Assembly (NCBI RefSeq): GCF_030816015.1
Contig: NZ_JAUSXN010000001.1
Location: 3,968,001 to 4,032,000 of the forward strand
Reading direction: 5' to 3'
DNA from: Pedobacter sp. W3I1
GTDB taxonomy: Bacteria; Bacteroidota; Bacteroidia; Sphingobacteriales; Sphingobacteriaceae
DNA length: 64,000 nt
Shown one piece after another: positions 34,249 to 54,793 of this stretch. The translations under genes and the position numbers were made by a program. The notes below the pieces were generated by a model. That model made no database searches and was not told where the DNA came from. It was given only the letters and a program-made list of their open reading frames with translations. How positions within the stretch are numbered: the stretch's first letter is position 1; each line of letters opens with the position of its first letter.

Positions 34249-34283
34249 TACATTTGTATTAAATACTACTAATTCTATAGGAT
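34249..34283 (+). promoter_or_regulatory. Promoter and shared 13-bp motif of the PhyH leader
   Basis: TACATTTG at 34249..34256 is an exact match to the Bacteroidetes -7 consensus TAnnTTTG. Downstream, AATTCTATAGGAT (34271..34283) directly precedes the leader ATG; the same 13 bases occur in the same sense upstream of the FGE leader (53627..53639). At 34266..34280 it forms a partial dyad, CTACT-N5-TATAG. An alternative -7 box, TACGTTTT at 34301..34308, would put the motif upstream of the promoter as in the other copy. Confidence 0.5.
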
Positions 34284-34364
34284 ATGTCGAATAAAACAAA
34301 TACGTTTTATTTTCCTTCAGTACCGAACCACTCGCCAATGCGAATGTGCTGTTGCTGCGCATAA
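34284..34364 (+). CDS. Cysteine-rich leader peptide ending MRMCCCCA, upstream of PhyH
   Basis: A 26-codon frame starting in GATATG and ending Met-Arg-Met-Cys-Cys-Cys-Cys-Ala-stop, 48 nt before the PhyH start. An internal ATG at 34338 would give only the 8-residue peptide. A second frame at 53488..53580 has the same last eight residues, a similar start (NK...FYF.S) and different Cys codons (TGC TGT TGC TGC here, TGT TGT TGT TGC there), which argues for selection on the peptide. Polycysteine upstream ORFs act as cysteine-responsive attenuators in mycobacteria; I infer a comparable role here. No transcript data are available. Confidence 0.68.
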   Translation: MSNKTNTFYFPSVPNHSPMRMCCCCA

Positions 34365-34412: not shown

Positions 34413-35219
34413 ATGGCCACATCGTATCCAACCTTTACCTTATCTGAACAATTAACACAAGAACAGCTTGATTTTTTTAACACACATGGGTTTATCCATT
34501 TCAAGAATTTCATCAAACCCGAAACGGTTTCTTCCATTATCGATGCTTCTAAACAAGTAGAACAAAAATGGATACAAGAAGATGTTAAAAAAATAAATGG
34601 GGTGCCAATTAAATACGGAAAAGATCTTGACGGCTCCGCAATTGTACAACGTTTTGCCTTTATTAACCAGCAACATCAAACTTTAAGCGGTCTGCTATTA
34701 GATCCACGCTTTAACGCCCTTCTTCAGTTGGCAGGAGATGGTGCACGCCTGGGTACTGAAGAAAAAGACGGCATGGTATTTAACCACTATATTAATGGAC
34801 CGGAAAGTAAGTTCAGTAAAATGGGCTGGCATACGGATGGTTTAAGGGATATTTTCTATGGTATTAAACTGAACCCGATGCTCAATGTAGGCATCCACTT
34901 GAGCACTTTAAAACCAGAAAATGGCGGGTTGAAAATTATCCCGGGTACGCACAAACAAAGTATTTACCAAATGCTTTTCCGCAAAAAATACTTCCTGGAT
35001 AACAAACCTGATGCTGAAGAAGTATCAATATTACCAGAAGCAGGAGATTTAACCATCCACGATGGAAGACTGTGGCACAGGGTGGCAGAATCGGCCATTC
35101 GGGGCGAGGAAAGTAGACGACGTGTAATCTATATTCCAATTATCGCAGGAAAATATACCCCAAAAAATGAGAATAGTCCAACCGTATTTTACCAGCGTTT
35201 TGCCGGAATTGTAAAATAA
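34413..35219 (+). CDS. PhyH-family Fe(II)/2-oxoglutarate dioxygenase
   Basis: A 268-residue cytoplasmic protein of the phytanoyl-CoA dioxygenase family. The iron-binding facial triad is visible as His140-x-Asp142 (MGWHTDGLRD) and His222 (GRLWHRV); an Arg in 236-238 (SRRRV) is placed to bind 2-oxoglutarate. N-terminal EQLDFFNTHGFIHFKNF is typical of the family. Substrates range from lipids to amino acids and natural products, so the target cannot be assigned. It leads an operon with a 50-aa ORF, a CDP-alcohol phosphatidyltransferase and GtrA, and lies behind a polycysteine leader, which suggests a sulfur-related (for example organosulfur) or lipid substrate. Confidence 0.88.
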   Translation: MATSYPTFTLSEQLTQEQLDFFNTHGFIHFKNFIKPETVSSIIDASKQVEQKWIQEDVKKINGVPIKYGKDLDGSAIVQRFAFINQQHQTLSGLLLDPRFNALLQLAGDGARLGTEEKDGMVFNHYINGPESKFSKMGWHTDGLRDIFYGIKLNPMLNVGIHLSTLKPENGGLKIIPGTHKQSIYQMLFRKKYFLDNKPDAEEVSILPEAGDLTIHDGRLWHRVAESAIRGEESRRRVIYIPIIAGKYTPKNENSPTVFYQRFAGIVK

Positions 35220-35376: not shown

Positions 35377-36066
35377 TTGGAGGGTAATATTAAAAAGGAA
35401 GAAGACCATTCAGATGGCAAAAGGGTATTTTCAGATCGGGAACGGACTAATATTTTACGTAAGGGCGAACAAAGCCTGATCCTTTTTTTACTTAAAAGGG
35501 TTCCAAAATGGATTACGCCCAATATCATGACGGGTATTGGCATGTTTGGATCACTGATTGTTTTTTCAGGCTTTATTTTGGGTAGTTTTTATGCCAAGAG
35601 TTATTTGCTAATCGGAATTTTGGGATTTATGATCAACTGGCTTGGCGATTCGCTTGATGGCAGATTGGCCTATTTCCGTAAAATACCAAGAAAATGGTAT
35701 GGTTTTGCACTCGACATTACAATGGATTGGCTCAGTATTATCCTGATTGGTTTGGGCTACTACTATTATGCTGGTGAAAACACACAAATTTTCGCTTTTC
35801 TATTCGTGGTATTATATGGCTGGTCTATGATTATTTCTCAGCTCCGTTATAAAATTACAGGCTTTTATCAAATCGATTCGGGTTCTTTAGGTCCAACCGA
35901 GTTACGGGTAATTATTTCACTTGTCCTGATAGCCGAAACTTTATTAACAGGCAGTATTACTTATTTCGCAATTGCAATGGTTACGCTGTTATTGATCTTC
36001 AACATTATTGATACGTTTAAACTTTTAAAAGCAGGCGATGCTAAAGACAAGGAGGAGAAAATATAA
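35377..36066 (+). CDS. CDP-alcohol phosphatidyltransferase family protein
   Basis: A 229-residue membrane enzyme with about six helices. The CDP-alcohol phosphotransferase motif is visible at 91-117: D91-SL-DG-RL-A-Y-x9-G109-FAL-D113-ITM-D117. The four metal-binding Asp residues are present, but the usual Arg after Ala is Tyr99. The family transfers a phosphatidyl or phospho-alcohol group from CDP to an alcohol (glycerophosphate, serine, inositol). The start is a TTG, as no ATG occurs in frame before residue 51; it lies 1 bp after the preceding stop, which suggests coupling. It overlaps the GtrA gene by one base (TAATG). Confidence 0.85.
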   Translation: MEGNIKKEEDHSDGKRVFSDRERTNILRKGEQSLILFLLKRVPKWITPNIMTGIGMFGSLIVFSGFILGSFYAKSYLLIGILGFMINWLGDSLDGRLAYFRKIPRKWYGFALDITMDWLSIILIGLGYYYYAGENTQIFAFLFVVLYGWSMIISQLRYKITGFYQIDSGSLGPTELRVIISLVLIAETLLTGSITYFAIAMVTLLLIFNIIDTFKLLKAGDAKDKEEKI

Positions 36067-36533
36067 TGACCTGGGCATCTGTTAAACTTTTCCTCAAAGC
36101 ACAGGTATCTGCTTTTTCGGGAGGCGTTACCGATTACGGCTTAATGATATTGCTAACAGAATGGTTGCATATCTATTTTGCCTTTTCGATCTTAATTTCT
36201 GGAACGCTTGGCGGGATTGTTAATTTTTGCATCAACCGTTACTGGGCATTTAAAACTGATGATGGCTATTGCAGCTCTACCAGTGGACAACTCATTCGTT
36301 TTTTCACCGTAGTTTTGGGGAGTATCTCTTTAAAATCTGGTGGTACCTATCTCCTACACCAAAGCTTAAATGTAGATTATAAAATTGGCAGGCTTTTAAT
36401 CGACAGTGTGGTTTCCTACGGATTTAACTATCCCCTAATGAAATATTGGGTGTTCAAAATCAATAAACTAAGTGCTTCTGAAGCAGATGATGAAGATTAC
36501 TTTGAAAGGCTTGGCGAAAAACAACGGGCTTAA
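36066..36533 (+). CDS. GtrA-like membrane protein
   Basis: A 155-residue protein with four predicted membrane helices and GtrA/DPMS-type motifs: AFSGGVTDYGLMILLTE at the start, GTLGGIVNFCINRYWAFK (about 48-65) and YPLMKYWVFK near the end. GtrA proteins are thought to move polyprenyl-phosphate-linked sugars across the inner membrane. It is translationally coupled to the phosphatidyltransferase, which points to a joint role in building or decorating an envelope lipid or glycan. The acidic C-terminal tail (SEADDEDYFERLGEK) is probably cytoplasmic. Confidence 0.87.
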   Translation: MTWASVKLFLKAQVSAFSGGVTDYGLMILLTEWLHIYFAFSILISGTLGGIVNFCINRYWAFKTDDGYCSSTSGQLIRFFTVVLGSISLKSGGTYLLHQSLNVDYKIGRLLIDSVVSYGFNYPLMKYWVFKINKLSASEADDEDYFERLGEKQRA

Positions 36534-44085: not shown

Positions 44086-45735
44086 TTAAAAACCGAAGCC
44101 TTCAGATACGGTTTCCTGTACCTTACTTTTCCGGAATTCTTTCATCGATTGTGGCTCTTTGGCCTCTAGGGTTGCAAAATCGACTACACCTGTTCTTTTT
44201 GCCCAGTCGAAATAAGCTACCGATAACCTGCTCACCACATCATGGTTTTGCCTGGCTACATTGGTGGTTTCACCGCGGTCGGTTTCTACATCGTACAGCT
44301 CCCAATTGTAACCTGGCCAGGTAGATACCAGTTTCCATTTACCAGCACGTACTGCGCGATTGCCTGCACGTTCCCAAAATAGCGGTTCGTCACGTTTCAG
44401 TTCGTTATCATTACCAAACAACACGGGCAGCAAACTTTTACCGGCCAATGCATTCGGTGTAATGCCCTGATGGCTTTTCGGGTAAGTAGCTCCGGCCAGC
44501 TCGTAAAAAGTTGGGGCAATATCGATGATATGTCCCGTGCCTTTTTTAATACTACCGGGTTTAATTTTAGCCGGATACCAGGCAATAAACGGCGAGCTGA
44601 TGCCACCTTCATACATGTAATCTTTAAAAGCTTTTAATGGCGAATTCGACGCATAAGACCAGTTTTTGCTCTGCGACTCGTACGAACCAATGGTACCCAC
44701 GGGGCCCGAATTGCGCACCGCACCTTTGTACCACTTTACCAGGTCTTCTGCAGGGGCGCCATTATCAGAAATAAACAGGATGATGGTATTTTTATCGGCT
44801 CCAGATGCTTTTAACTTATTTAGCACCTGGCCAATGCCCTGATCTAAGCGATCGACCATGGCGGCGAAAATCTCCATCTTTTTAGCCCACTGGCTGCGCT
44901 GATCGAATGATAGTTTATTCCAGTTGTAGATATCGGCATCTTTTTCCGAAATGCTCGATTTGCCATCGATAATACCCAGTTCTTTTTGCTTTTTAATTCT
45001 TTCGGCACGAAGCGCATCCCAACCTTTATCGTAGCGGCCTTTGTATTTGGCGATATCCTCAGGCAATGCATGCAGGGGCCAGTGTGGTGCGGTGTAGGCT
45101 AAATACAGAAAGAAAGGTTTGTCTTTAGGGCTTTGATCCAAAAACTTAACGGCATTTTCGGTAATTACATCGGTTTGATAAAATTTACCAGCTTCTAAAG
45201 GATAAGGTTTCCCGTCAATGGTATAGGCACGTTTTTTACCCCCTTCATAATCACCCTGATCGAAATAACTTCCATTTTCCGACATCATAACATGATCGAA
45301 ACCTCGTTGCCACGGGAAACTCACCTCTTTACCTGCCACGTGCCATTTGCCCGACATTAAAGTATTATATCCCTGGGTTTTTAAAACCTCAGCTAGGGTA
45401 AGCGATTCTTTATTGAGGTAACCCTGGTAAGCAGGAAGGCCCAGATCGTTAGCGAAATAGCCCACCCCAGCTTTATGCTGGTATTGGCCGGTTAATAAGG
45501 AAGCACGTGTAGGCGCACAAATGGAATTGTTATAAAATTCTTTTAGCCGAAGCCCCTCGTTGGCCAGGCGATCTAAATTGGGCGTTTTAATCTCTGAACC
45601 ATAGGCACCAAGATCTGAATAACCCAGATCATCGGCCAGGATCAGGATAATATTAGGCTTTGCCGGTTTGGCATTTTGTGCAAAACCCTGGAAAGCCATT
45701 AATGCACCCAGGCATGTTAATATTATTTTGTTCAT
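44086..45735 (-). CDS. Type I sulfatase (family S1), distal copy
   Basis: A 549-residue exported sulfatase of the alkaline-phosphatase fold with signal peptide (ending FQGFAQ). The signature NNSICAPTRASLLTGQYQHK carries Cys73, the residue converted to formylglycine, in the C-x-P-x-R motif. Metal-binding Asp residues appear in ILADDLGYSD (Asp35, Asp36) and in ILFISDNGAPAE further on; HWPLHALP also fits. It removes sulfate esters from an imported or surface glycan. It follows a related sulfatase by 19 bp, and the two share long blocks, suggesting an old duplication with different sulfate positions as targets. Confidence 0.93.
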   Translation of the reverse strand: MNKIILTCLGALMAFQGFAQNAKPAKPNIILILADDLGYSDLGAYGSEIKTPNLDRLANEGLRLKEFYNNSICAPTRASLLTGQYQHKAGVGYFANDLGLPAYQGYLNKESLTLAEVLKTQGYNTLMSGKWHVAGKEVSFPWQRGFDHVMMSENGSYFDQGDYEGGKKRAYTIDGKPYPLEAGKFYQTDVITENAVKFLDQSPKDKPFFLYLAYTAPHWPLHALPEDIAKYKGRYDKGWDALRAERIKKQKELGIIDGKSSISEKDADIYNWNKLSFDQRSQWAKKMEIFAAMVDRLDQGIGQVLNKLKASGADKNTIILFISDNGAPAEDLVKWYKGAVRNSGPVGTIGSYESQSKNWSYASNSPLKAFKDYMYEGGISSPFIAWYPAKIKPGSIKKGTGHIIDIAPTFYELAGATYPKSHQGITPNALAGKSLLPVLFGNDNELKRDEPLFWERAGNRAVRAGKWKLVSTWPGYNWELYDVETDRGETTNVARQNHDVVSRLSVAYFDWAKRTGVVDFATLEAKEPQSMKEFRKSKVQETVSEGFGF

Positions 45736-45754: not shown

Positions 45755-47410
45755 CTAAAAATTCTGGTTGCCTCTATTGTTTCTTTGAGCAGGTTGGGCA
45801 GGTGCGGTTTTAAGCGTTTCGTAATCTACCACCCCATTTTCTGCAGCCCACTTTACGTAAGCGGCTTTTAACTGTGCTACAACTTCAGGATGTTGTGCCG
45901 ACACATCTGCATTTTCGGCCCTATCCTTTTCGATATCGAAAAGCTCATATTTTTCAGTCAAACCTGCCGGAGAAACGAGTTTCCATTTGCCCAACCGGAC
46001 GGCTTTGTTACCACCACGTTCCCAAAATAAAGGCACCGAACGCTGAACGGTATCAGTTGATCCGCTAAGCAATGGCAACAAACTTTTACCAGGCAGGGTA
46101 TTGCTGGTTATGCCGTTTAACTGTTTTGGATAGATAATACCCGCCAGTTCGTAAAAAGTTGGCGCAAGATCGATTAAATGACCGGTGCCTTTGGCAATTG
46201 TTCCGGCTTTAATTTTATTCGGAAACCAGGCGATAAAGGGTGCACTAATGCCGCCTTCGTATGGAGCGCCTTTATAATTGCGGAGCGGCGAATTGCCGGT
46301 TTGCGACCAATTGCTGTTCTGCGTTTCGTAAGATCCGGCGGTACCAACAGGGCCAGTGGTACGTTGTGTGTAAGGCCTGGTACCATTGCCACCCTGAGCA
46401 CCATTATCTGAAATAAAAATGATGAGGGTATTTTCGTCCTGTTTCAGTTCTTTTAGTTTAGCAAGCAAACGGCCAACACCCTGGTCTACATGATCGATCA
46501 TAGCGGCATAAACTTCCTGGCGGGTTTGCCAATATTCCTGCTCATCGTAAGTTAACTTGTTCCAGGGTTTTACCTGATCATCGTGCGCAGCAATTTTCTG
46601 ATCGGCACCGATAAGGCCTTTTTTAATCGCATTGCGGTAGCGTTGTACGCGCAGCGAATCCCAACCCAATTTATATTTGCCTTTATATTTGGCAATATCA
46701 GCAGGAAGCGCCTGAAGTGGCCAATGTGGCGCATTGTAGGCCAGGTATAAAAAGAAAGGCTTTTTAGCTTTTTGCTGACCATCTAAGAAACCCAATGCAT
46801 TATTGGTGATCTCTTCGGTTAAATATTTACCAGGCTCCAGAAAATAGGGTTCATTATCTTTAACCAGAGGGACTGTTTCAGTACCTTTTTCTCCGATTTC
46901 ATAATAGTTACTGGCACCACCAATAAAGCCAAAGAAATGATCGAAACCGCGTTGGTTTGGCCATTGGTTCCGATCGTCGCCCACATGCCATTTACCCGCC
47001 ATGAGTGTGGTGTAACCACCAGATTTAAGTACTTCGGCCAGCGTAAGCGATTCACGGTTTAGAAAACCCTGATAAGCAGCCAGGCCAAGATTATTGTTAA
47101 AAAAACCAACACCAGCCTTGTGCTGATACTGTCCGGTAAGCAATGATGCCCTGGTGGGTGCACAGATCGAATTGTTGTAAAATTCTTTCAACTTTAAACC
47201 GCCAGCGGCCAGCTTATCCAAATTGGGCGTTTCTATTTCTGTCGCCCCAAAAGGGCCAATGTCTGAAAAGCCAAGATCATCAACCAATACCAGTACGATA
47301 TTTGGTTTCTGCTTTTTCTGTGCCGATGCGACCTGCACAGCCAATAAACAGGCAGCCAACAGGCATGCTTTTAAGATCGGCAAACGGGAATATTTTTGTT
47401 TAAAATTCAT
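45755..47410 (-). CDS. Type I sulfatase (family S1), proximal copy
   Basis: A 551-residue exported sulfatase (signal peptide ending QVASAQ). The formylglycine site is Cys83 in NNSICAPTRASLLTG; metal ligands are in VLVDDLGFSDIG and IIFISDNGAQGG. Compared with the distal copy it has an insertion rich in Glu/Lys/Pro around 185-200 and a Gln/Asn/Arg-rich C-terminus (PAQPAQRNNRGNQNF). Its gene follows SusD by 24 bp. Cys-type sulfatases need the maturase encoded at the head of this operon, or an anSME elsewhere. Confidence 0.93.
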   Translation of the reverse strand: MNFKQKYSRLPILKACLLAACLLAVQVASAQKKQKPNIVLVLVDDLGFSDIGPFGATEIETPNLDKLAAGGLKLKEFYNNSICAPTRASLLTGQYQHKAGVGFFNNNLGLAAYQGFLNRESLTLAEVLKSGGYTTLMAGKWHVGDDRNQWPNQRGFDHFFGFIGGASNYYEIGEKGTETVPLVKDNEPYFLEPGKYLTEEITNNALGFLDGQQKAKKPFFLYLAYNAPHWPLQALPADIAKYKGKYKLGWDSLRVQRYRNAIKKGLIGADQKIAAHDDQVKPWNKLTYDEQEYWQTRQEVYAAMIDHVDQGVGRLLAKLKELKQDENTLIIFISDNGAQGGNGTRPYTQRTTGPVGTAGSYETQNSNWSQTGNSPLRNYKGAPYEGGISAPFIAWFPNKIKAGTIAKGTGHLIDLAPTFYELAGIIYPKQLNGITSNTLPGKSLLPLLSGSTDTVQRSVPLFWERGGNKAVRLGKWKLVSPAGLTEKYELFDIEKDRAENADVSAQHPEVVAQLKAAYVKWAAENGVVDYETLKTAPAQPAQRNNRGNQNF

Positions 47411-47434: not shown

Positions 47435-48910
47435 TTAATAGTTTACCCAATCCGGGTTTTGTTTTAATTTAGGGTTGAGGTTAAGCTCGCGTTGTGGAAT
47501 CGGAAAATGGATGTGGCGCTTGGCCGCTAAAGTTTTTCCGGCGGCTTTAAGCGTGGCCACATAATAATCGGCTCCTCTCCTTGCCAGATCGAACCAACGT
47601 TGATATTCGAAAACAAGTTCCTTTCTACGCTCCTGAAAAACAGCATCCCTAAACTGATCTACATTTAATGCCGGGGAAACATCAGCTAGTTTGACAATGC
47701 CTGCACGCTGGCGAACTTCGTCTATAGCGGCATAGGCTGCTGCATTTGGACCATTGTTTACTTCATTTAGCGCTTCAGCATAAATTAAAAGCACTTCTGC
47801 ATAGCGGATAATGGGCAAATTTTTAGAAGACTGAGATTGATTGCCCACTACAGCCGGATCGTAATATTTATTAAACTGCGGCGAAAAGGTATACAATTGA
47901 CCATTGGTAGGGCTTACCATCTGGGTAACAAAAGTGATTGCCTTTCTAGTATCGTTATCGGCAAAACTGGCATACAAACCGCCCGCAGTATGCAAAGCAT
48001 CCGCATAATCGCCATTAATACCAGGTACATCTGCAGGTGCCGAACGACTAGCTAAACTGTTGCCCTGATAACCAGCATTGCCCACAAACTGTGCAGAGAA
48101 GATATGTTCTTTGCCGTTTTTAGTGGCTACGTTAAACACATCGGCAAAATTTGCAAACAGCGAATAGTATTTACTATCGATTACTTCTTTACTTTTTTGT
48201 GCAGCATTTGCCCACTCTTTATGGGTAAGGTAAACTTTTGCCAGCAGGCTTTTGGCTGCGCCTGAGGTTGCTCTTCCTAAATCTTTACTGCTATATTCAG
48301 CCGGTGCTGGTAAGGATTCTGCATCTTTTAAATCCTGAATAATCTGTGCATAAACTGCCGCCTCGGGCGCGTTGGATACATATAAATCTTCGGGCGCTAA
48401 TGAAGTATTTTCGTGCAATACAATGGGTACATCGCCAAACCAGCGTACCAGATTGAAATAATGTAGTGCCCTTAAAAACTTCGATTCGTTAATTAACCGT
48501 TTTCTAATGGCCGAACCGATATTGGCATCATCTATTAAAGCGATTTTATCGATGGCAATGTTCGAGGCATTAATGGCATCATAACTTTGTTTCCATAACT
48601 GCTCCATCCTATCGTTTGATGAATCGTGGGTTAGGCCCGATATGGCCCTAACATGTGCATTTCTGGCTCTTGGCCCTGCCTCATAATCGTCGGTAGCCAT
48701 TTCTACGCCGATCTGCATCAAACTGTTGTAAAGCGACTGACCACTTTCGTAAAGTTTGCGGTAATTGGCCGTAACGGCAGAAACCGCCTGACCTTCATTT
48801 TGATAGAACTGTGCAGTAACGAGCACAGCATCTGGATCTTCTTCTAACTTAGAGCAGGCCGAAAATGCTATAGCTAAAATAGACAGGTATAATAAGTTTA
48901 TCTTTTTCAT
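47435..48910 (-). CDS. susD: SusD/RagB-family lipoprotein of the sulfatase PUL
   Basis: A 491-residue SusD homologue with lipobox ending in Cys19 (AIAFSACSKLEEDPDA). Typical blocks: SKFLRALHYFNLVRWFGDVPIV, LPIIRYAEVLLIYAEALNE and the C-terminal RHIHFPIPQRELNLNPKLKQNP. It partners the SusC gene 15 bp upstream. The presence of sulfatases suggests a sulfated polysaccharide ligand, which cannot be named from sequence alone. Confidence 0.95.
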   Translation of the reverse strand: MKKINLLYLSILAIAFSACSKLEEDPDAVLVTAQFYQNEGQAVSAVTANYRKLYESGQSLYNSLMQIGVEMATDDYEAGPRARNAHVRAISGLTHDSSNDRMEQLWKQSYDAINASNIAIDKIALIDDANIGSAIRKRLINESKFLRALHYFNLVRWFGDVPIVLHENTSLAPEDLYVSNAPEAAVYAQIIQDLKDAESLPAPAEYSSKDLGRATSGAAKSLLAKVYLTHKEWANAAQKSKEVIDSKYYSLFANFADVFNVATKNGKEHIFSAQFVGNAGYQGNSLASRSAPADVPGINGDYADALHTAGGLYASFADNDTRKAITFVTQMVSPTNGQLYTFSPQFNKYYDPAVVGNQSQSSKNLPIIRYAEVLLIYAEALNEVNNGPNAAAYAAIDEVRQRAGIVKLADVSPALNVDQFRDAVFQERRKELVFEYQRWFDLARRGADYYVATLKAAGKTLAAKRHIHFPIPQRELNLNPKLKQNPDWVNY

Positions 48911-48925
48911 TGAAATATCGATTGA

Positions 48926-51900
48926 TTAAAATGTTAACCTTAAACCAGCCCTAACCGATCTGGCGATGGGATAAATCCCGACATCAGTTCCTGGCGACAC
49001 ATTACTTCCTGAGGTAATTTCAGGATCGAAGCCTGAGTAATTTGTCCAGGTAAGGAGGTTTTGCCCGGCTACATAAAAATATACATTGGATAACTTTGCC
49101 TTAGCAGAAATCTTTTTCGGCAAGGTATAGCCCAGCGAAACATCTTTTAACCTTAAGAAGGAACCACTTTCGATAAAGCGATCGGAAAATACAGGTGCTG
49201 GATCTAACTTGGCTCTTGGAATGGTCTGACTTGGATTGTTTGGTGTCCATCGGTTTAAAGCGGTAGCCGAGGCGTTTTGTTGCCCGGTAAACAGCTCCAG
49301 GGTTTGCATATTCGAGTTCAAAATGCTGTTACCATAAGAACCTTGTACAAATATTAACAGATCGAAACCTTTATACTCGAAATTATTGGTTAGACCAAAA
49401 ATAAAATCGGGCTGTGCATTGCCAATAATGGCCTTATCTGCAGCTGTGGTAAACTGGCCATCGCCATTAATGTCTTTATATAATCTATCGCCAGGTTTTG
49501 GCACAGCGCTACCGGTATATTTACCTTTAGTTGCTTCTTCTCCAGTTTGCAGGATTCCATCGGTTACATTGCCATAAAAGCTACCCAATGGTTCACCAAC
49601 TTTTACTATATAGTTTCCGCTGATGTAAGATTGTGCGCCATTACCAATACTCAACACTTCATTCCGGTTAACAGAAAAGTTTAAATTGGTATTCCAGATC
49701 AATGCTCCGGTAAGGTTGCGGGTATTCAGGCCAATTTCGAAACCTTTATTTAATACAGATCCATAATTCTGGAGCGATGTACCGTAACCTGTTGTCCACG
49801 GAATCTCTACATTTAACAATAAATCTTTGGTTTTCTTGTAGTATCCGTCTAAGGTTAACTGAATCCTGTTGTTAAAAAATCCTATATCTAAGCCTGCATC
49901 GTACTGATGGGTGGTTTCCCATCCCAGTCTATCATTCGCAATGCGGTTAGGTGCAAAACCTGTGGCGGTAGTGCCACCAAAAACATAATTGAGACTGTAT
50001 AAGGTTGCCAAAGACTGGTATTGGCCAATCTCCAGGTTTCCTGTAGTACCGAAACTCGCACGCACTTTAAGTTCGCTGATTGTTTTTTGTAACGATTCGA
50101 AAAATTTCTCATTACTGATTTTCCATGAAGCCGCTGCTGAAGGGAAATAGCCCCATTTGTTTCCTTTTCCAAACCGTGATGAACCATCGGCACGGATACT
50201 GGAGGTTAGGAAATAACGGTTATCAAAACTGTAATTTACCCTCGCCAGGTAAGAATGTAATACCCATCTCGTGGCATCAGAATAAGGCGCTACCAAAGTT
50301 GCGCCGCTTTGCAGGTTGTTAAAGGTTAAATCGTCCGTTACAAACTTCTGTGCACTTGCCCTTGTGGTTTCACTCGAAAATTCCTGTTGCGTAAAACCGA
50401 TTACGGCATCTAAAGCATGTTTACCGAAAGCTTTATTGTACGAAAGGGTGTTTTCATTTAACCATGAGTAAGAATTGTAAGTGCCTTTTCCGGCCGAACC
50501 ACCAATGGCACTTCCTTCATAAATGGTTGATGGGATATAATTCTTTTCATTTACACTGTTTACATCAGCGCCAAGCAACACTTTTAAGTTCAGTCCTTCA
50601 ATAATGGTGTATTCTCCAAAGGCTGTTCCCAAAAATTTATTGGTGGTTGATTTGTTGATCTGTTCTTTTAATGAAGCAATTGGATTGGCAAATATATTTT
50701 CGAAAGGATTACGAAGGGTGTAAGCGCCCGAAGCATCGTAAATGGAAGCAGTAGCAGGCATGATTAACAAACCATTGATGATCCCTGAAGGAGATACATT
50801 GGCATCGGCCTTGCTTCCGGTAATACTTGCACTTACTTTAAACTTTTCAAAAGGCTGGGCATCTACATTGGCCCTGATACTGATCCTTGAATAATCGGTG
50901 TTCTTTAAAATACCATCCTGATCAAAGTAATTCCCCGAGATAAGATACCTCGTTTTTGGATTACCGCCGCTGATGGTGAGTTGATGGTTCTGTGTTGGTG
51001 CACGTTCGACTGCCTCGCTTTGCCAATCGGTCCCAACGCCTAACTGATCGATCTGTGCCTGACTTACATACTGAAAGCGGCCTTTGGTCGGATCGGTATC
51101 ATACAAAGCATCGTTCCTGAGCAAAGCAAAATCGTGTGCATTTAAGAGGTCTAACTTCTTTCTTAACGATTGCGTGCCGTAACTTCCTTCGTAGGTAACT
51201 GCACTACGATCTGCTTTTCCTTTTTTGGTGGTGATGATGACCACACCGTTGGCTCCTCTCGAACCATAAATCGCGGTTGCAGAAGCATCTTTCAGGATAT
51301 CAATGGTTTCAATATCTGAAGGATTAATACTGGCCAATGGGTTGAGCGGCGTACCGCTCAGCGTACCTGCAGAAGCCGAACTGTTGTACAAAGGAAATCC
51401 ATCTACCACATACAAAGGCTCATTTCCACCTTGTACCGAACTTCCTCCCCTTACACGGATGCTGACGCCACCACCCGGCTGACCAGATGTTTGGGTAACC
51501 TGCACACCGGCAGCGGCACCTTTTAACAATTGATCGACCGAACTTAAGGGTTGTTTTAATGCCGATTTAGAAATGGAAGACACGGAACCTGTAATGTCGC
51601 TTCTCTTCTGCGTTCCATACCCCACTACCACCACATTATCGAGCTGGTTGGCCGCTTCTTCCAGTTTAATTTCAATCGGACTTCCAGTTGCAATGATTTC
51701 GACGGTTTTATAACCGATGTAACTTACGGTCAAGGTGTAAGGAAACTTCTGCCCGGTTACAAACCTAAATTTACCCTCGTTATCTGTTGCTGCAGAGTGG
51801 GTTGTTCCATTAATGCGGACCACCACACCTGGGATGGGCTCTTTGGTTTTCGAATCGGTAACTAAACCAGTAAGGGTAGAGTTAATGATCGGTACTGTTT

Positions 51901-52078
51901 GCGCTTTAACCGCAATTGAAAAAATAAATTGAACGATAATCAACATTCCTAAATAGCACGAGGTGCGCAAGGAACGGACTGATAATCTGAATCGAACAGG
52001 CTTTTCCTGCCCGAAAACTGGTAACGAGACTTGCGAAGCCGACCCATAGGGCCACCTGACTTCTTCAAATTTTTGCAT
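48926..52078 (-). CDS. susC: SusC/RagA-family transporter of the sulfatase PUL
   Basis: A transporter of about 1050 residues. The start at 52078 (MQKFEEVRWPYGSASQVSLP) is preferred; the frame extends 16 codons further to 52126 without added features. A membrane-spanning signal (CYLGMLIIVQFIFSIAVKAQ) lies unusually far in, at about 40-60. Then follow the carboxypeptidase-regulatory-like domain (LTGLVTDSKTKEPIPGVVVR), VVVVGYGTQKRSDITGSVSS and the SusC signature AIYGSRGANGVVIITTKKGK. The barrel ends VRAGLRLTF. It imports oligosaccharides with its SusD partner. Confidence 0.94.
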   Translation of the reverse strand: MQKFEEVRWPYGSASQVSLPVFGQEKPVRFRLSVRSLRTSCYLGMLIIVQFIFSIAVKAQTVPIINSTLTGLVTDSKTKEPIPGVVVRINGTTHSAATDNEGKFRFVTGQKFPYTLTVSYIGYKTVEIIATGSPIEIKLEEAANQLDNVVVVGYGTQKRSDITGSVSSISKSALKQPLSSVDQLLKGAAAGVQVTQTSGQPGGGVSIRVRGGSSVQGGNEPLYVVDGFPLYNSSASAGTLSGTPLNPLASINPSDIETIDILKDASATAIYGSRGANGVVIITTKKGKADRSAVTYEGSYGTQSLRKKLDLLNAHDFALLRNDALYDTDPTKGRFQYVSQAQIDQLGVGTDWQSEAVERAPTQNHQLTISGGNPKTRYLISGNYFDQDGILKNTDYSRISIRANVDAQPFEKFKVSASITGSKADANVSPSGIINGLLIMPATASIYDASGAYTLRNPFENIFANPIASLKEQINKSTTNKFLGTAFGEYTIIEGLNLKVLLGADVNSVNEKNYIPSTIYEGSAIGGSAGKGTYNSYSWLNENTLSYNKAFGKHALDAVIGFTQQEFSSETTRASAQKFVTDDLTFNNLQSGATLVAPYSDATRWVLHSYLARVNYSFDNRYFLTSSIRADGSSRFGKGNKWGYFPSAAASWKISNEKFFESLQKTISELKVRASFGTTGNLEIGQYQSLATLYSLNYVFGGTTATGFAPNRIANDRLGWETTHQYDAGLDIGFFNNRIQLTLDGYYKKTKDLLLNVEIPWTTGYGTSLQNYGSVLNKGFEIGLNTRNLTGALIWNTNLNFSVNRNEVLSIGNGAQSYISGNYIVKVGEPLGSFYGNVTDGILQTGEEATKGKYTGSAVPKPGDRLYKDINGDGQFTTAADKAIIGNAQPDFIFGLTNNFEYKGFDLLIFVQGSYGNSILNSNMQTLELFTGQQNASATALNRWTPNNPSQTIPRAKLDPAPVFSDRFIESGSFLRLKDVSLGYTLPKKISAKAKLSNVYFYVAGQNLLTWTNYSGFDPEITSGSNVSPGTDVGIYPIARSVRAGLRLTF

Positions 52079-52238
52079 ACTTTTGTTTAGGGTTAAGTGG
52101 TAAATTGATTCAGGTGCCAACGCCAATTGAAGACCTGTTTCGATAATTTAATCTAGGGGAGATACATTTGTGTTTCCCCGATTCTTATATAGTTTGTAAA
52201 ATTTTTATTTGCTGCCCTCCTCTTGTTTAATTGCTTTG

Positions 52239-53396
52239 TTATTTGTCGCTTACGCACCTAAAACCCAGGTGTTCCATGCCACTGTCTTCTGATGTTTTCA
52301 TTCTTCTTGCTACGCGATAACCAGAACAATAACTATCGTTGCAGAGAAAAGATCCTCCTCTAACGGTATGTTTAATGGCATAAGGTTCATCAGGATCGTG
52401 AGATTTAGCCGGTCCCTGCGGATTGGTGATTCCCTGTGGTTTATTTACGCTTGCATAATATCGGTTATCATAAAAATCTGAGCACCACTCCCAAACATTT
52501 CCGGCCATATCATAAAGACCATAGGCATTCGGAGCGAAAGATTTAACAGGTGCTGAGTAATAGAATTTATCTTTCAGTACGTTTTTATAAGGAAAATCGC
52601 CTTCCCAAATATTCGCTTTTGCCTTGCTAATATTTACAGATTCGTTTCCCCACGGGTAAATATTATCTTTCAATCCACCTCGGGCTGCCCACTCCCATTC
52701 GGCTTCAGTTGGCAATCTTTTTCCAGCCCATTTGCAATAAGCAAGGGCATCGAAATAAGAAACATGTACTACCGGAAAATTGTCTTTTCCTAGAATGTTA
52801 CTTTTTGGTCCGCGAGGATGTTTCCAATCGGCGCCCTTGCTCCAGGCCCACCATTGTGCATAATTATTAATATCTACAGGACCTTTTGCAGGTACAAAAA
52901 CCAATGAAGCGGCAACCAGTACATTGGCAGCTGGCTTAGGTGTTCCGGGAGGTAATTGCTTTTTAAGTATGTTCCAATCTGGCTTTTGCTCTGCTGTGGT
53001 AACATAACCTGTAGCCTTAACAAACTGCTTAAATTGTGTATTGGTTACTTCTGTAACATCAATATAAAAGCCTTTAACACTTACTTTATGTTTCGGAAAT
53101 TCGTCGGCCGATGCCTGTGCATTGTCGCCACCCATGCGGTAAGTTCCTCCATTTATCCATACCATACCTTTACGCTCTTTAATTGATGAAGTTTTGCCTG
53201 TAGCATCTACCAATTTGGGCAAAGTACCGATGATACCAAAACGGTTAGGTAATTTAGCTGCACAACAAACTGCAACACTTGGGTAAATTGTTTTTTTTGG
53301 GTGGGTATCTTTTGCAGTCGAAGTTGGATCTGGCACTAAAAAGCCTGACAAAGCAATGATTACAAGGGATCTCCTGTAAAATAAGGCAAGGTTCAT
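52239..53396 (-). CDS. Formylglycine-generating enzyme (FGE, SUMF1 family)
   Basis: A 385-residue FGE-sulfatase-domain protein. The C-terminus RGGSFLCNDSYCSGYRVARR has the two copper-binding cysteines (Cys352, Cys357) spaced as in true FGEs, followed by HLGFRC; this separates it from the many SUMF1-like proteins that lack the pair. Other family blocks are GGTYRMGGDN, LPTEAEWEWAARGG, YPWGNE and GLYDMAGNVWEWCSD. FGE oxidises the sulfatase Cys to formylglycine using O2 and copper. An N-terminal hydrophobic segment (SLVIIALSGFLVP) suggests export, so sulfatases might be matured in the periplasm. It is the first gene of the operon, 160 bp before SusC. Confidence 0.88.
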   Translation of the reverse strand: MNLALFYRRSLVIIALSGFLVPDPTSTAKDTHPKKTIYPSVAVCCAAKLPNRFGIIGTLPKLVDATGKTSSIKERKGMVWINGGTYRMGGDNAQASADEFPKHKVSVKGFYIDVTEVTNTQFKQFVKATGYVTTAEQKPDWNILKKQLPPGTPKPAANVLVAASLVFVPAKGPVDINNYAQWWAWSKGADWKHPRGPKSNILGKDNFPVVHVSYFDALAYCKWAGKRLPTEAEWEWAARGGLKDNIYPWGNESVNISKAKANIWEGDFPYKNVLKDKFYYSAPVKSFAPNAYGLYDMAGNVWEWCSDFYDNRYYASVNKPQGITNPQGPAKSHDPDEPYAIKHTVRGGSFLCNDSYCSGYRVARRMKTSEDSGMEHLGFRCVSDK

Positions 53397-53487
53397 AATA
53401 AGGATGTATTTTGATATCTGACTAGTTAGGTCAAAGCATTATTGTTGAGCGCCTGGGCATTTAGAAAGCCACGGTTATATGATAAGT

Positions 53488-53580
53488 TTATGCGCAACAA
53501 CAACACATTCGCATTGTTTGGTGATGTTTCGGACAGTGGATAGCGTAGGTAGAAAATGAAAGAAAGTAAAATTTATTCAT
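53488..53580 (-). CDS. Cysteine-rich leader peptide ending MRMCCCCA, upstream of FGE
   Basis: A 30-codon frame starting in GATATG, encoding MNKFYFLSFS at the start and MRMCCCCA at the end, 91 nt before the FGE start. An internal ATG at 53514 would give the 8-residue form. The last eight residues are identical to those of the leader at 34284..34364, although the Cys codons differ, and the N-termini also align (NK..FYF). A ribosome short of Cys-tRNA would stall at the four Cys codons; I infer that this raises expression of the sulfatase operon when cysteine is low. Confidence 0.68.
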   Translation of the reverse strand: MNKFYFLSFSTYAIHCPKHHQTMRMCCCCA

Positions 53581-53602
53581 ATCGTTATTTGCAGGTGGCA
53601 GG

Positions 53603-53644
53603 CAAATATAATATTTAATTCTATAAATCCTATAGAATTTATAG
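53603..53644 (-). promoter_or_regulatory. Promoter and dyad operator of the FGE leader
   Basis: On the minus strand TATATTTG (53603..53610) matches TAnnTTTG exactly and would start transcription near 53596. Upstream lies a 15-bp dyad CTATA-N5-TATAG (53630..53644) overlapping AATTCTATAGGAT (53627..53639, minus sense), the 13-mer shared with the PhyH leader. The spacing (about 16 bp from motif to -7 box) allows an activator or repressor at the -33 region. Confidence 0.55.
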
Positions 53645-53785
53645 ATTAATAGGTTTTATTTATCCTACTCTGTTCTGATAAGGATTTAACGCATAAAATT
53701 TCATTAAAAATATTTCTAAAAAAAAATGTCGAAGGCACGATATGCATCCCGACAATCCAATAGAAACTAAAATAGCTATGCTTAT
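53645..53785. other. Intergenic, nothing further seen
   Basis: Sequence between the presumed FGE promoter and the stop of the beta-propeller gene. It is very A/T-rich, with no gene and no clear terminator hairpin for the upstream unit. Confidence 0.3.
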
Positions 53786-54793
53786 CTATTTACCTACTTC
53801 CAGAATTTTAAAGCTTCCGGGAATACGATGTGGGCGTTGGCTGGCATCTTTACTTTTTTCGAAAGCTGCCGTTGGCAGAAAAAGATGATGACTAGCTAAA
53901 TCAATAGCAATGGTTCTTGCTCCAGTTTCTGTTTTTACGGTTTCCTGTACAACAAATTTATTGGCCGAAACTTCTTTCACTACTGTAATGCTGCCTTCTC
54001 CATTGGCGCTGTAAGCTAATTTAGTTGCAGGATCGAAAACTACACCGTCACAATTATCGCCAATCGGTAACGAGGTAATCTGTTTGCCTGTTTTGGCATC
54101 CAGAATAAGCATCACTTTGTTTGCACAAACCGTAAACAGTCTTGATGTTACACGATCGATAGCTAAGCCAGACGGCTCTTCTCCGCCTTTTAACTTATAC
54201 CTTGATAAAACTTTATAGGTACTCATATCAAAACAAACAATTTCTCCGGTATCTTCGATATTTACATATACCTTCCCTTTCCCGTCTGGCACGCCTGCTT
54301 CGGGTTTGCCTCCTAATGCAATCGTTGCGATAACCTGATCAGTTTGTGGATCGATAATACTGGCATCGCTACTTTTGCCGTTGAATACGATTACTTTTTT
54401 GCTATAATCATCAAAGAAAGTAGCATCAGGATTTTGTCCAACCTTAATTTGTGCCGACACAATGAAGTTGTTCAAGTCGAAAACGGCACAAGTACCTGCT
54501 TTGCCATTGGTGGTGTAACCTTTCCCAAACAGACCTGCAATTGCAATTCCATGTACACCAAGTGTATTGTGAATCACGCCTACCGAATCGCCACTGTTCT
54601 TATTTAATATATTTACCTGATTGCCATGAGAAACAAAAAGATTGTTGTGCAGCTGATCGATACTTACATAATCCCAACCCCCATCGCTTTGTATTTTATG
54701 GATAGCCAATACATGCAGGCCACTTTTCTGTTGGGCATTCGCAGCAATTGACATTGCAAAAAGAACCACAATGCTTAATAATTTCCTTTTCAT
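53786..54793 (-). CDS. YVTN/NHL-type beta-propeller protein, exported
   Basis: A 335-residue protein with signal peptide (ending IAANAQ) and repeated propeller blades: DYVSIDQLHNNLFVSHGNQV, VIHNTLGVHGIAIAGLFGKG, KPEAGVPDGKGKVYVNIEDT, DGVVFDPATKLAYSANGEGS and ARTIAIDLASHHLFLPTAAF. The blade pattern is of the YVTN 40-residue family, which serves as binding scaffold in the periplasm; no catalytic site is seen. It follows the RND permease by 42 bp on the same strand, a repeated association I infer but cannot verify as functional. Confidence 0.82.
   Translation of the reverse strand: MKRKLLSIVVLFAMSIAANAQQKSGLHVLAIHKIQSDGGWDYVSIDQLHNNLFVSHGNQVNILNKNSGDSVGVIHNTLGVHGIAIAGLFGKGYTTNGKAGTCAVFDLNNFIVSAQIKVGQNPDATFFDDYSKKVIVFNGKSSDASIIDPQTDQVIATIALGGKPEAGVPDGKGKVYVNIEDTGEIVCFDMSTYKVLSRYKLKGGEEPSGLAIDRVTSRLFTVCANKVMLILDAKTGKQITSLPIGDNCDGVVFDPATKLAYSANGEGSITVVKEVSANKFVVQETVKTETGARTIAIDLASHHLFLPTAAFEKSKDASQRPHRIPGSFKILEVGK

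Follow-up and report, generated by a model that had tools for sequence, protein, structure and literature searches.

Leader ORF 2 lies on the reverse strand of the window, the whole 64,000-nt stretch of DNA of the soil bacterium Pedobacter sp. W3I1 that was analysed, and encodes a 30-residue peptide, MNKFYFLSFSTYAIHCPKHHQTMRMCCCCA, that ends in MRMCCCCA. Its 30 codons, whose positions were rechecked, lie exactly where the sequence-only reading preceding this work had placed them. The ORF ends 91 nt before a gene for an FGE-sulfatase family protein, which is followed by SusC, SusD and two sulfatase genes (Table 1); this gene content had been proposed from the letters alone and is confirmed by Pfam. 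A candidate -7 promoter box fitting the TAnnTTTG consensus stated for Bacteroidota promoters (PMC9723704) precedes the ORF, and two overlapping operator copies precede the box, copy a at a spacing that is the same at orthologous loci.

A second ORF, leader ORF 1, lies on the forward strand before a PhyH-family dioxygenase gene, which is followed by genes for two membrane proteins. As had been claimed, it ends in the same MRMCCCCA written with other Cys codons: the 27-nt ends of the two leaders (ATGCGAATGTGYTGTTGYTGCGCATAA) show two base differences, both in Cys third positions. The two ends are nearly identical DNA, and the argument for peptide selection that had been built on the identical peptide is not supported in that form. 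The two ORFs also share an NK..FYF start; this likeness, pointed out in the sequence-only reading, is real and weak as evidence, because the NK..FYF codons of the PhyH family form an inverted repeat, AATAAAAC-N6-GTTTTATT, that is absent from the FGE leader. An NCBIfam search with both leader peptides returned no family, and no Rfam family covers either leader, even at E values up to 5.

Table 1. Features of the two leader loci in the window.
Feature	Position	Strand	Details
Candidate -7 box of leader 1	34249..34256	+	TACATTTG
Operator of leader 1	34266..34280	+	CTACTAATTCTATAG; 17 nt behind start of the -7 box
Leader ORF 1	34284..34364	+	MSNKTNTFYFPSVPNHSPMRMCCCCA, then stop; ends 48 nt before the PhyH-family gene
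PhyH-family dioxygenase	34413..35219	+	PF05721, E 4.1e-17
CDP-alcohol phosphatidyltransferase-like membrane protein	35377..36066	+	PF01066, 20.6 of 22 bits, just below cut-off
GtrA-like membrane protein	36066..36533	+	PF04138
Sulfatase	44086..45735	-	PF00884, E 3e-63
Sulfatase	45755..47410	-	PF00884, E 4.7e-64
SusD-like protein	47435..48910	-	Pfam
SusC-like TonB-dependent receptor	48926..52126	-	Pfam
FGE-sulfatase family protein (sulfatase-modifying factor domain)	52239..53396	-	PF03781, E 5e-80
Complement of the Cys-codon run	53436..53452	-	GCGCTCAACAATAATGC; in the leader-FGE spacer; duplex compared with shuffles
27-nt core, common to leaders 1 and 2	53488..53514	-	ATG CGA ATG TGT TGT TGT TGC GCA TAA (MRMCCCCA and stop)
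Leader ORF 2	53580-53488	-	30 aa, MNKFYFLSFSTYAIHCPKHHQTMRMCCCCA, then stop; orthologue known in G332
Candidate Bacteroidota -7 promoter box of leader 2	53603..53610	-	TATATTTG (TAnnTTTG); consensus from PMC9723704
Operator copy b of leader 2	53621..53635	-	CTATAGGATTTATAG; overlaps copy a
Operator copy a of leader 2	53630..53644	-	CTATAAATTCTATAG; starts 34 nt before the -7 box

Cys-run leaders in the genome and its relatives

Leaders 1 and 2 are the only two places in the 6.4-Mb genome that match the pattern M-R/S-M-C-C-C-C; its reversed control has no match. The shorter pattern TGYTGYTGYTGY is found five times in the window, where shuffles predict 0.10; the three sites other than the leaders lie opposite long ORFs. 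Genome-wide it gives 97 raw matches (51 + 46; control 10), most of them in other frames of long ORFs or opposite them; clear of long ORFs there are six, all in short frames. Three of the six are intergenic ORFs that start with ATG and end in a Cys run (L001, L002, which is leader 2, and L107); the intergenic Cys-run frames L111, L120 and L135 have no ATG before the run. The third of these Cys-run leaders, MISETFTCLLILVPDTSSDSSCCCC and then a stop codon, is found at G000:C1:3474790 before SusC, SusD and a sulfatase (PF00884, 1.7e-63). The downstream genes serve sulfur at two sulfatase operons of the genome, and each leader has the form of a short ORF with a codon run for the amino acid to be sensed, just upstream of the operon.

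A broader pattern, applied to 301 genomes of the family, matches at 28 places in 26 genomes: 24 PhyH leaders, leader 2, L003 and two chance occurrences. The L003 peptide is MRICCCCC, and its neighbours, which we take from their N-termini to be a sulfhydrylase gene and a homoserine acyltransferase gene, flank it. Five pattern matches (L010, L027, L288, L294 and L295) were discarded as chance occurrences, being located within long ORFs or on the strand opposite them. The orthologue of leader 2 in G332, MNKFYFLSFSTYAIHCSNHNRSMRMCCCCA, precedes an FGE gene that is 91% identical. Thirty FGE loci of the genus were read, out of 111 matches in 101 genomes, and seven of them (L029, L030, L032, L035, L037, L038 and L040) have a Cys-clustered leader, defined as a short ORF with at least three Cys in five residues within 350 nt; the L035 ORF ends 274 nt upstream. 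The sequences of these seven leaders are mostly unrelated, and all seven belong to the 12 best-scoring loci. Among FGE loci of named genomes, 80 in number, mostly from other genera and two from Pedobacter, no Cys-run leader was seen.

In a scan of the phylum 10 of 395 genomes match, and five of these belong to a single genus of another family, g29, where the same PhyH operon is accompanied by an operator-like site and a run of 6-9 Cys. When g29 genomes were taken irrespective of the leader, PhyH was found in 15 of 121 (L376-L390) at 87-90% identity. All 13 readable loci picked by the PhyH protein in this way (L376 and L380, which did not fit the start pattern used, being left out) have a Cys-run leader of 5-9 Cys, broken by one Ser in two cases, and 12 of the 13 have the operator pattern; at six, the leader ORF continues 43 nt beyond the first base of the PhyH start codon. 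An identity of 87-90% between two families of the class suggests that the PhyH operon moved between them together with its leader and operator. The leaders were found in the genus of the window; outside it, the PhyH operon has them in a single genus of another family. The scope "in Bacteroidetes" given to them in the sequence-only reading was too wide.

Conservation of the Cys run

Substitutions were counted by parsimony on the PhyH tree for 27 pattern-found PhyH loci; L015, shorter by one codon, was left out. In the 18 codons that precede MRM there are 19 synonymous and 63 nonsynonymous changes, whereas the PhyH protein on the same tree shows 1431 and 221, and selection on the whole peptide is rejected on this comparison. 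The Cys codons show six synonymous and no nonsynonymous changes, a zero that is partly built in because most loci were found by a pattern demanding TGY. This synonymous-nonsynonymous count had been proposed as a check on the leaders, and its outcome is divided, favourable for the Cys codons within that limit and unfavourable for the N-terminal part. The MRM, Ala and stop codons show no change of either kind. Since the Cys and MRM positions stand in the search pattern, the choice of loci partly fixes their residues; this does not hold for the synonymous silence of Arg and Ala, and in PhyH 171 of 178 constant-residue columns use more than one codon.

Loci chosen by other means are free of this bias. 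A Cys run is present at 14 of 14 PhyH loci selected by the operator, 13 times as MRMCCCCA and once, in L268, as MYYIEQHPKNNQVYLMCCCL. The 13 of these that can be aligned show 1 synonymous and 0 nonsynonymous changes in the Cys codons, 12 and 23 in the N-terminal part, and 662 and 67 in PhyH. In the g29 leaders, with column numbering that begins at the last Met ahead of the first CCC (anchoring on the first CCC biases the counts partly), run columns 2-5 show 10 synonymous and 0 nonsynonymous changes, column 1 shows 1 and 3, and columns 7-10 show 1 and 23. The Cys run is kept, its edges shift, and the remaining peptide is not kept as protein. The earlier claim that the identical peptide reflects selection at the protein level is borne out only in part: the Cys run recurs, and outside it the PhyH leaders are unconstrained as protein.

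These counts also bear on an unlikely alternative, in which the conserved element is RNA or DNA, with ATGCG...CGCAT and the AATAAAAC/GTTTTATT repeat folding, and the Cys codons are a by-product. The absence of synonymous change in MRM, Ala and stop among the PhyH leaders of the window's genus fits such an element, as does the formation of the PhyH-leader hairpins in 98.3% of cells in a sequence-level pairing check. So does L004, a PhyH leader whose first ATG has become ATA, followed by TAG, with the inner ATG of MRMCCCCA intact, so that only MRMCCCCA is translatable there. The hairpins nevertheless show no compensatory change among 26 sequences, and were rejected as a conserved device; g29 lacks the CGCAT arm, and its Cys run is enlarged to 5-9 codons with synonymous variation, and the Cys run is the sole feature common to the divergent leaders.

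A palindromic operator and its contexts

Leaders 1 and 2 both adjoin an operator of the form CTACTAATNCTATAG or CTATA-N5-TATAG. The element AATTCTATAGGAT is common to the two, and at leader 1 and the third leader it lies within CTACTAATNCTATAG. The exact 15-mer CTACTAATNCTATAG has four sites in the genome, namely leader 1, the third leader, a SAM riboswitch and a tRNA-Met-like gene. Looser forms show no excess in this genome, neither the 15-mer with as many as two mismatches (46 sites, control 141) nor the palindrome alone (15 sites, reversed control 27), and both were rejected as genome-wide predictors; the case therefore rests on the exact sites and on location. Three of the 15 palindrome sites lie within 400 nt upstream of a SAM riboswitch, where 0.006 are expected by arithmetic, and four of the six SAM riboswitches of the genome have an operator at most 400 nt upstream (three as the palindrome, one as the 15-mer).

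Across the genus the exact CTACTAATNCTATAG occurs at 66 sites in 52 of 144 genomes, and the reversed control at nine. A Cys-run leader, taken as an ATG ORF of 6-60 aa with at least three Cys in five residues within 315 nt, is found on the operator strand at 25 of the 66 sites and on the other strand at two. Of the first 34 sites 13 have leaders, compared with 0.145 on average and never more than 2 in shuffles; among background windows the figure is 8 of 1104. The 25 leaders precede PhyH (14), a TonB receptor (5), SusC (4), a SAM-riboswitch operon (1) and L236 (1). The TonB sites concern a receptor of the MKIKLYQ type, with Pfam run on L267 only; the SusC sites comprise a sulfatase operon of this genome and three orthologous SusC starts, of which only the former was read as far as the sulfatase; L236 is another SusC-like start. 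Leader promoters were the first source of the motif, which makes the PhyH and SusC counts partly circular; the TonB, SAM and L236 counts are not.

Further sites lie before other genes. At six sites without a leader, a tetrapyrrole methylase gene, which we take to encode SUMT (siroheme, sulfite reduction), follows at 30-60 nt (Pfam on L212 only); at four more without a leader a TauE-like permease gene follows (Pfam on L276 only, the rest by N-terminal likeness). The methylase gene of the W3I1 genome has CTACAATTCCCATAG before TATATTTG, with three mismatches by hand count. Seven sites have a SAM riboswitch, six of which read away on the strand opposite the 15-mer, and nine have a tRNA-like gene, some recognised by ARAGORN or Rfam only. 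Occurrences without a link to sulfur genes, named beforehand as evidence against a sulfur regulon, were looked for at all 66 exact sites: 51 stand before sulfur genes, SAM riboswitches, Cys leaders (25 sites) or tRNA-like genes, and 15 have no visible sulfur link. These counts lend good support to the earlier claim that Cys-codon leaders belong to a sulfur regulon.

The same contexts weigh on two other explanations. The operator alone might matter, as the target of a sulfur-responsive repressor at promoters, with the leaders as dispensable relics. The methylase, TauE-like and tRNA-like sites, which have no Cys leader, speak for this, and so does L234, one of the 15 unlinked sites, a SusC orthologue by its start that has the operator and in which no leader was found. 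The presence of a Cys run at every operator-selected and every readable protein-selected PhyH locus, and its recurrence in several gene contexts, make this quite unlikely. The short ORFs might instead be metal- or redox-sensing Cys peptides and not codon-based Cys sensors. Copper-responsive uORFs are an example of metal-sensing Cys peptides, and a CCCC motif could in principle bind metal; this is nonetheless highly improbable, since the neighbours of the same operator are sulfatases, SAM riboswitches, a TauE-family permease and tRNA-like genes, and since run length (3-9 Cys) and context vary among unrelated peptides.

Two positions of the operator can be distinguished. At leader 2 and at the methylase and tRNA loci it starts 23-34 nt before TAnnTTTG; at the leaders of the PhyH, SusC and TonB genes it begins 9-17 nt after the first base of the box, close to where transcription presumably starts. 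Either position would suit a repressor. Among the six other FGE loci with a leader, the best operator-like site of five stands 33, 34 or 43 nt in front of TAnnTTTG (34 nt at leader 2); L193 has no mismatch to the palindrome, and L194, L196, L197 and L198 have 2, 3, 4 and 3 mismatches to the 15-mer. L195 has a leader and no operator-like site in 450 nt. The best sites of the leader-less FGE loci L199-L204 have 3-5 mismatches, none with that box spacing, and as L197 with its four mismatches is no better than these, only the box spacing separates the two groups.

Several arrangements with tRNA genes and riboswitches were also seen. At L167/L250 (G000:C1:4863091-4863378) the operator is followed by a tRNA-Cys gene (Rfam 51.9 bits) and, about 24 nt behind it, a SAM riboswitch; the order in G366 (L272) resembles this. 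At L163 (1501-1830; G000:C1:3177007) there is an operator, a 53-codon ORF without Cys or inner Met, and a weak tRNA-like gene. An operator followed by a weak tRNA-like gene is common to L163, L211, L214, L217, L228, L231, L278 and L279; ARAGORN calls tRNA-Met in three of these and tRNA-Lys in L228, and Rfam scores are 30-43 bits where they pass. In L210/L249 of this genome an operator is followed by the short ORF MKLRRQPQPYFLINYSDQYNCCCR, behind which comes a SAM riboswitch; a riboswitch of this kind accompanies MKSRRQPQPTFLISLSDMCNCCCR in the relative L233. At both loci, a leader ending in ..NCCCR and a SAM-I riboswitch stand in series before the same gene, and two sulfur sensors on one transcript are possible. 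At L208 (G000:C1:3503697) a SAM riboswitch, for which no operator was found, precedes a gene for a PLP enzyme of Cys/Met metabolism; between the two lies a short ORF rich in Cys (..ICCDMRAITCMCCCIQ).

Proposed mechanism and known systems

The sulfur-scavenging operons (FGE/SusCD/sulfatase and SusCD/sulfatase) and the PhyH operon have a common operator at the promoter and a short ORF just behind it; what these ORFs share in coding is a cluster of 3 to 9 Cys codons, often beside Met. We propose, with a probability of roughly 0.7, that leader 2 is a translated leader sensing charged Cys-tRNA and a member of a sulfur-starvation regulon; that it is a Cys-codon leader in a sulfur regulon is held with rather good confidence, and we infer that the regulon responds to sulfur. 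When sulfur is plentiful, a putative DNA-binding repressor would block the promoter. Once the repressor is released, a ribosome would translate the leader; with Cys-tRNA plentiful it would pass the Cys run fast and the main genes would stay low, and with Cys-tRNA scarce it would stall in the run and the main genes would be expressed. Ribosome stalling at Cys codons is likely, with a downstream step that probably differs between operons. Met often stands beside the Cys run (as MRM, QMMM, LMMY, SM, NM, PM or LM). This is seen at L032, L035, L221, L236, L267, L268, L274 and L284 and in PhyH leaders from the genus of the window, and the sensing by the leaders may therefore extend to Met.

For leader 2, the downstream step could be an RNA-pairing switch, a possibility to which we give somewhat less than even odds. 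The Cys run (UGUUGUUGUUGCGC) can form a duplex with GCGCUCAACAAUAAUGC, which occupies 53452-53436 and lies 40-56 nt upstream of the FGE start; a stalled ribosome would hold the Cys run as the 5' arm and free the 3' arm. The duplex has -19.2 kcal/mol against a shuffle mean of -12.0, and 3 of 200 shuffled spacers are as good; for the G332 orthologue none of 200 is. The L035 and L038 duplexes are borderline, with 11 of 200 shuffles as good in each. No pairing signal was obtained at L032, L037, L040 and L236 (88, 198, 104 and 106 of 200 shuffles as good), at two SusC loci (157 and 149), at the SAM leader (141) or at two PhyH loci (199 and 189). The minimum-energy folds of the five TonB loci place a complement of the Cys run shortly before the gene start (ACAGCAAACAU in four); 173, 90, 24, 216 and 0 of 500 shuffles are as good, and only L274 and L284 stand out. 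A simple consensus scan of 53350-53800 for intrinsic terminators found no terminator-like site, an absence that is weak either way because shuffles give only 0.2. In the PhyH family the lack of a pairing partner, together with a G-poor, unstructured spacer (44-50 nt, 0-2 G and no structure in 28 loci), suggests that Rho or translational coupling would act instead of pairing.

Poly-cysteine leader ORFs of Actinobacteria are reportedly the subject of Canestrari 2020, and the actinobacterial poly-Cys uORFs lie on leaderless mRNA. Poly-Cys leaders are known in that phylum (PMC1262725, PMC13236596), and those of the cys operons described in PMC1262725 resemble the leaders found here in having a short upstream ORF, a Cys run near the stop codon, sulfur genes downstream and no obvious terminator. 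They differ in belonging to another phylum and to biosynthetic cys operons, where the operons here are mainly for uptake and sulfatases, and in the palindromic operator that stands beside the leaders here; the likeness drawn is one of design. The uORFC-8-2 motif upstream of cysS in Rhodobacterales has a uORF with tandem Cys codons, for which ribosome-mediated attenuation is proposed, and an RNA stem around the codons, but as described in PMC8632094 it ends in a U-run terminator and its target is cysS, whereas no terminator was found here and the genes are for scavenging. SAM-I riboswitch (S box) operons share the operator at four of the six riboswitches of this genome, and one of its operons has both a CCC leader and a riboswitch; the riboswitch senses SAM by its aptamer, and the leaders are proposed to sense Cys-tRNA by translation. 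Leader-peptide candidates in Bacteroidota are mentioned in passages of PMC9723704 and PMC7366714 that give no detail on Cys. A literature search that covered few subscription papers found no description of a Cys-leader regulon in Bacteroidota, and the Bacteroidota set of Cys-run leaders looks undescribed, with related designs known in other phyla.

The usual explanation for sulfatase-bearing polysaccharide-utilisation loci of Bacteroidota is sugar induction. In Flavobacterium heparinum, heparinase and sulfatases are said to be repressed by sulfate and cysteine. A wider picture that we regard as speculative, and as a whole somewhat doubtful, is that the genus runs a layered sulfur-starvation regulon, in which one operator with its putative repressor would act at promoters, Cys-run leaders (Cys-tRNA) and riboswitches (SAM) would act on individual operons and sometimes together before one gene, and operator-driven tRNA-Cys and tRNA-Met-like genes would retune translation; the PhyH/CDP-alcohol-transferase operon might replace lipids that contain sulfur by others that do not. 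Because sulfatases have a Cys-codon leader in front of them, together with a sulfur operator, their expression for the sake of sulfur can be tested directly, and the operator motif offers a handle on a presumed sulfur regulator of this group. If the proposal is true, sulfatase polysaccharide loci would be driven by the need for sulfur and not by sugar alone.
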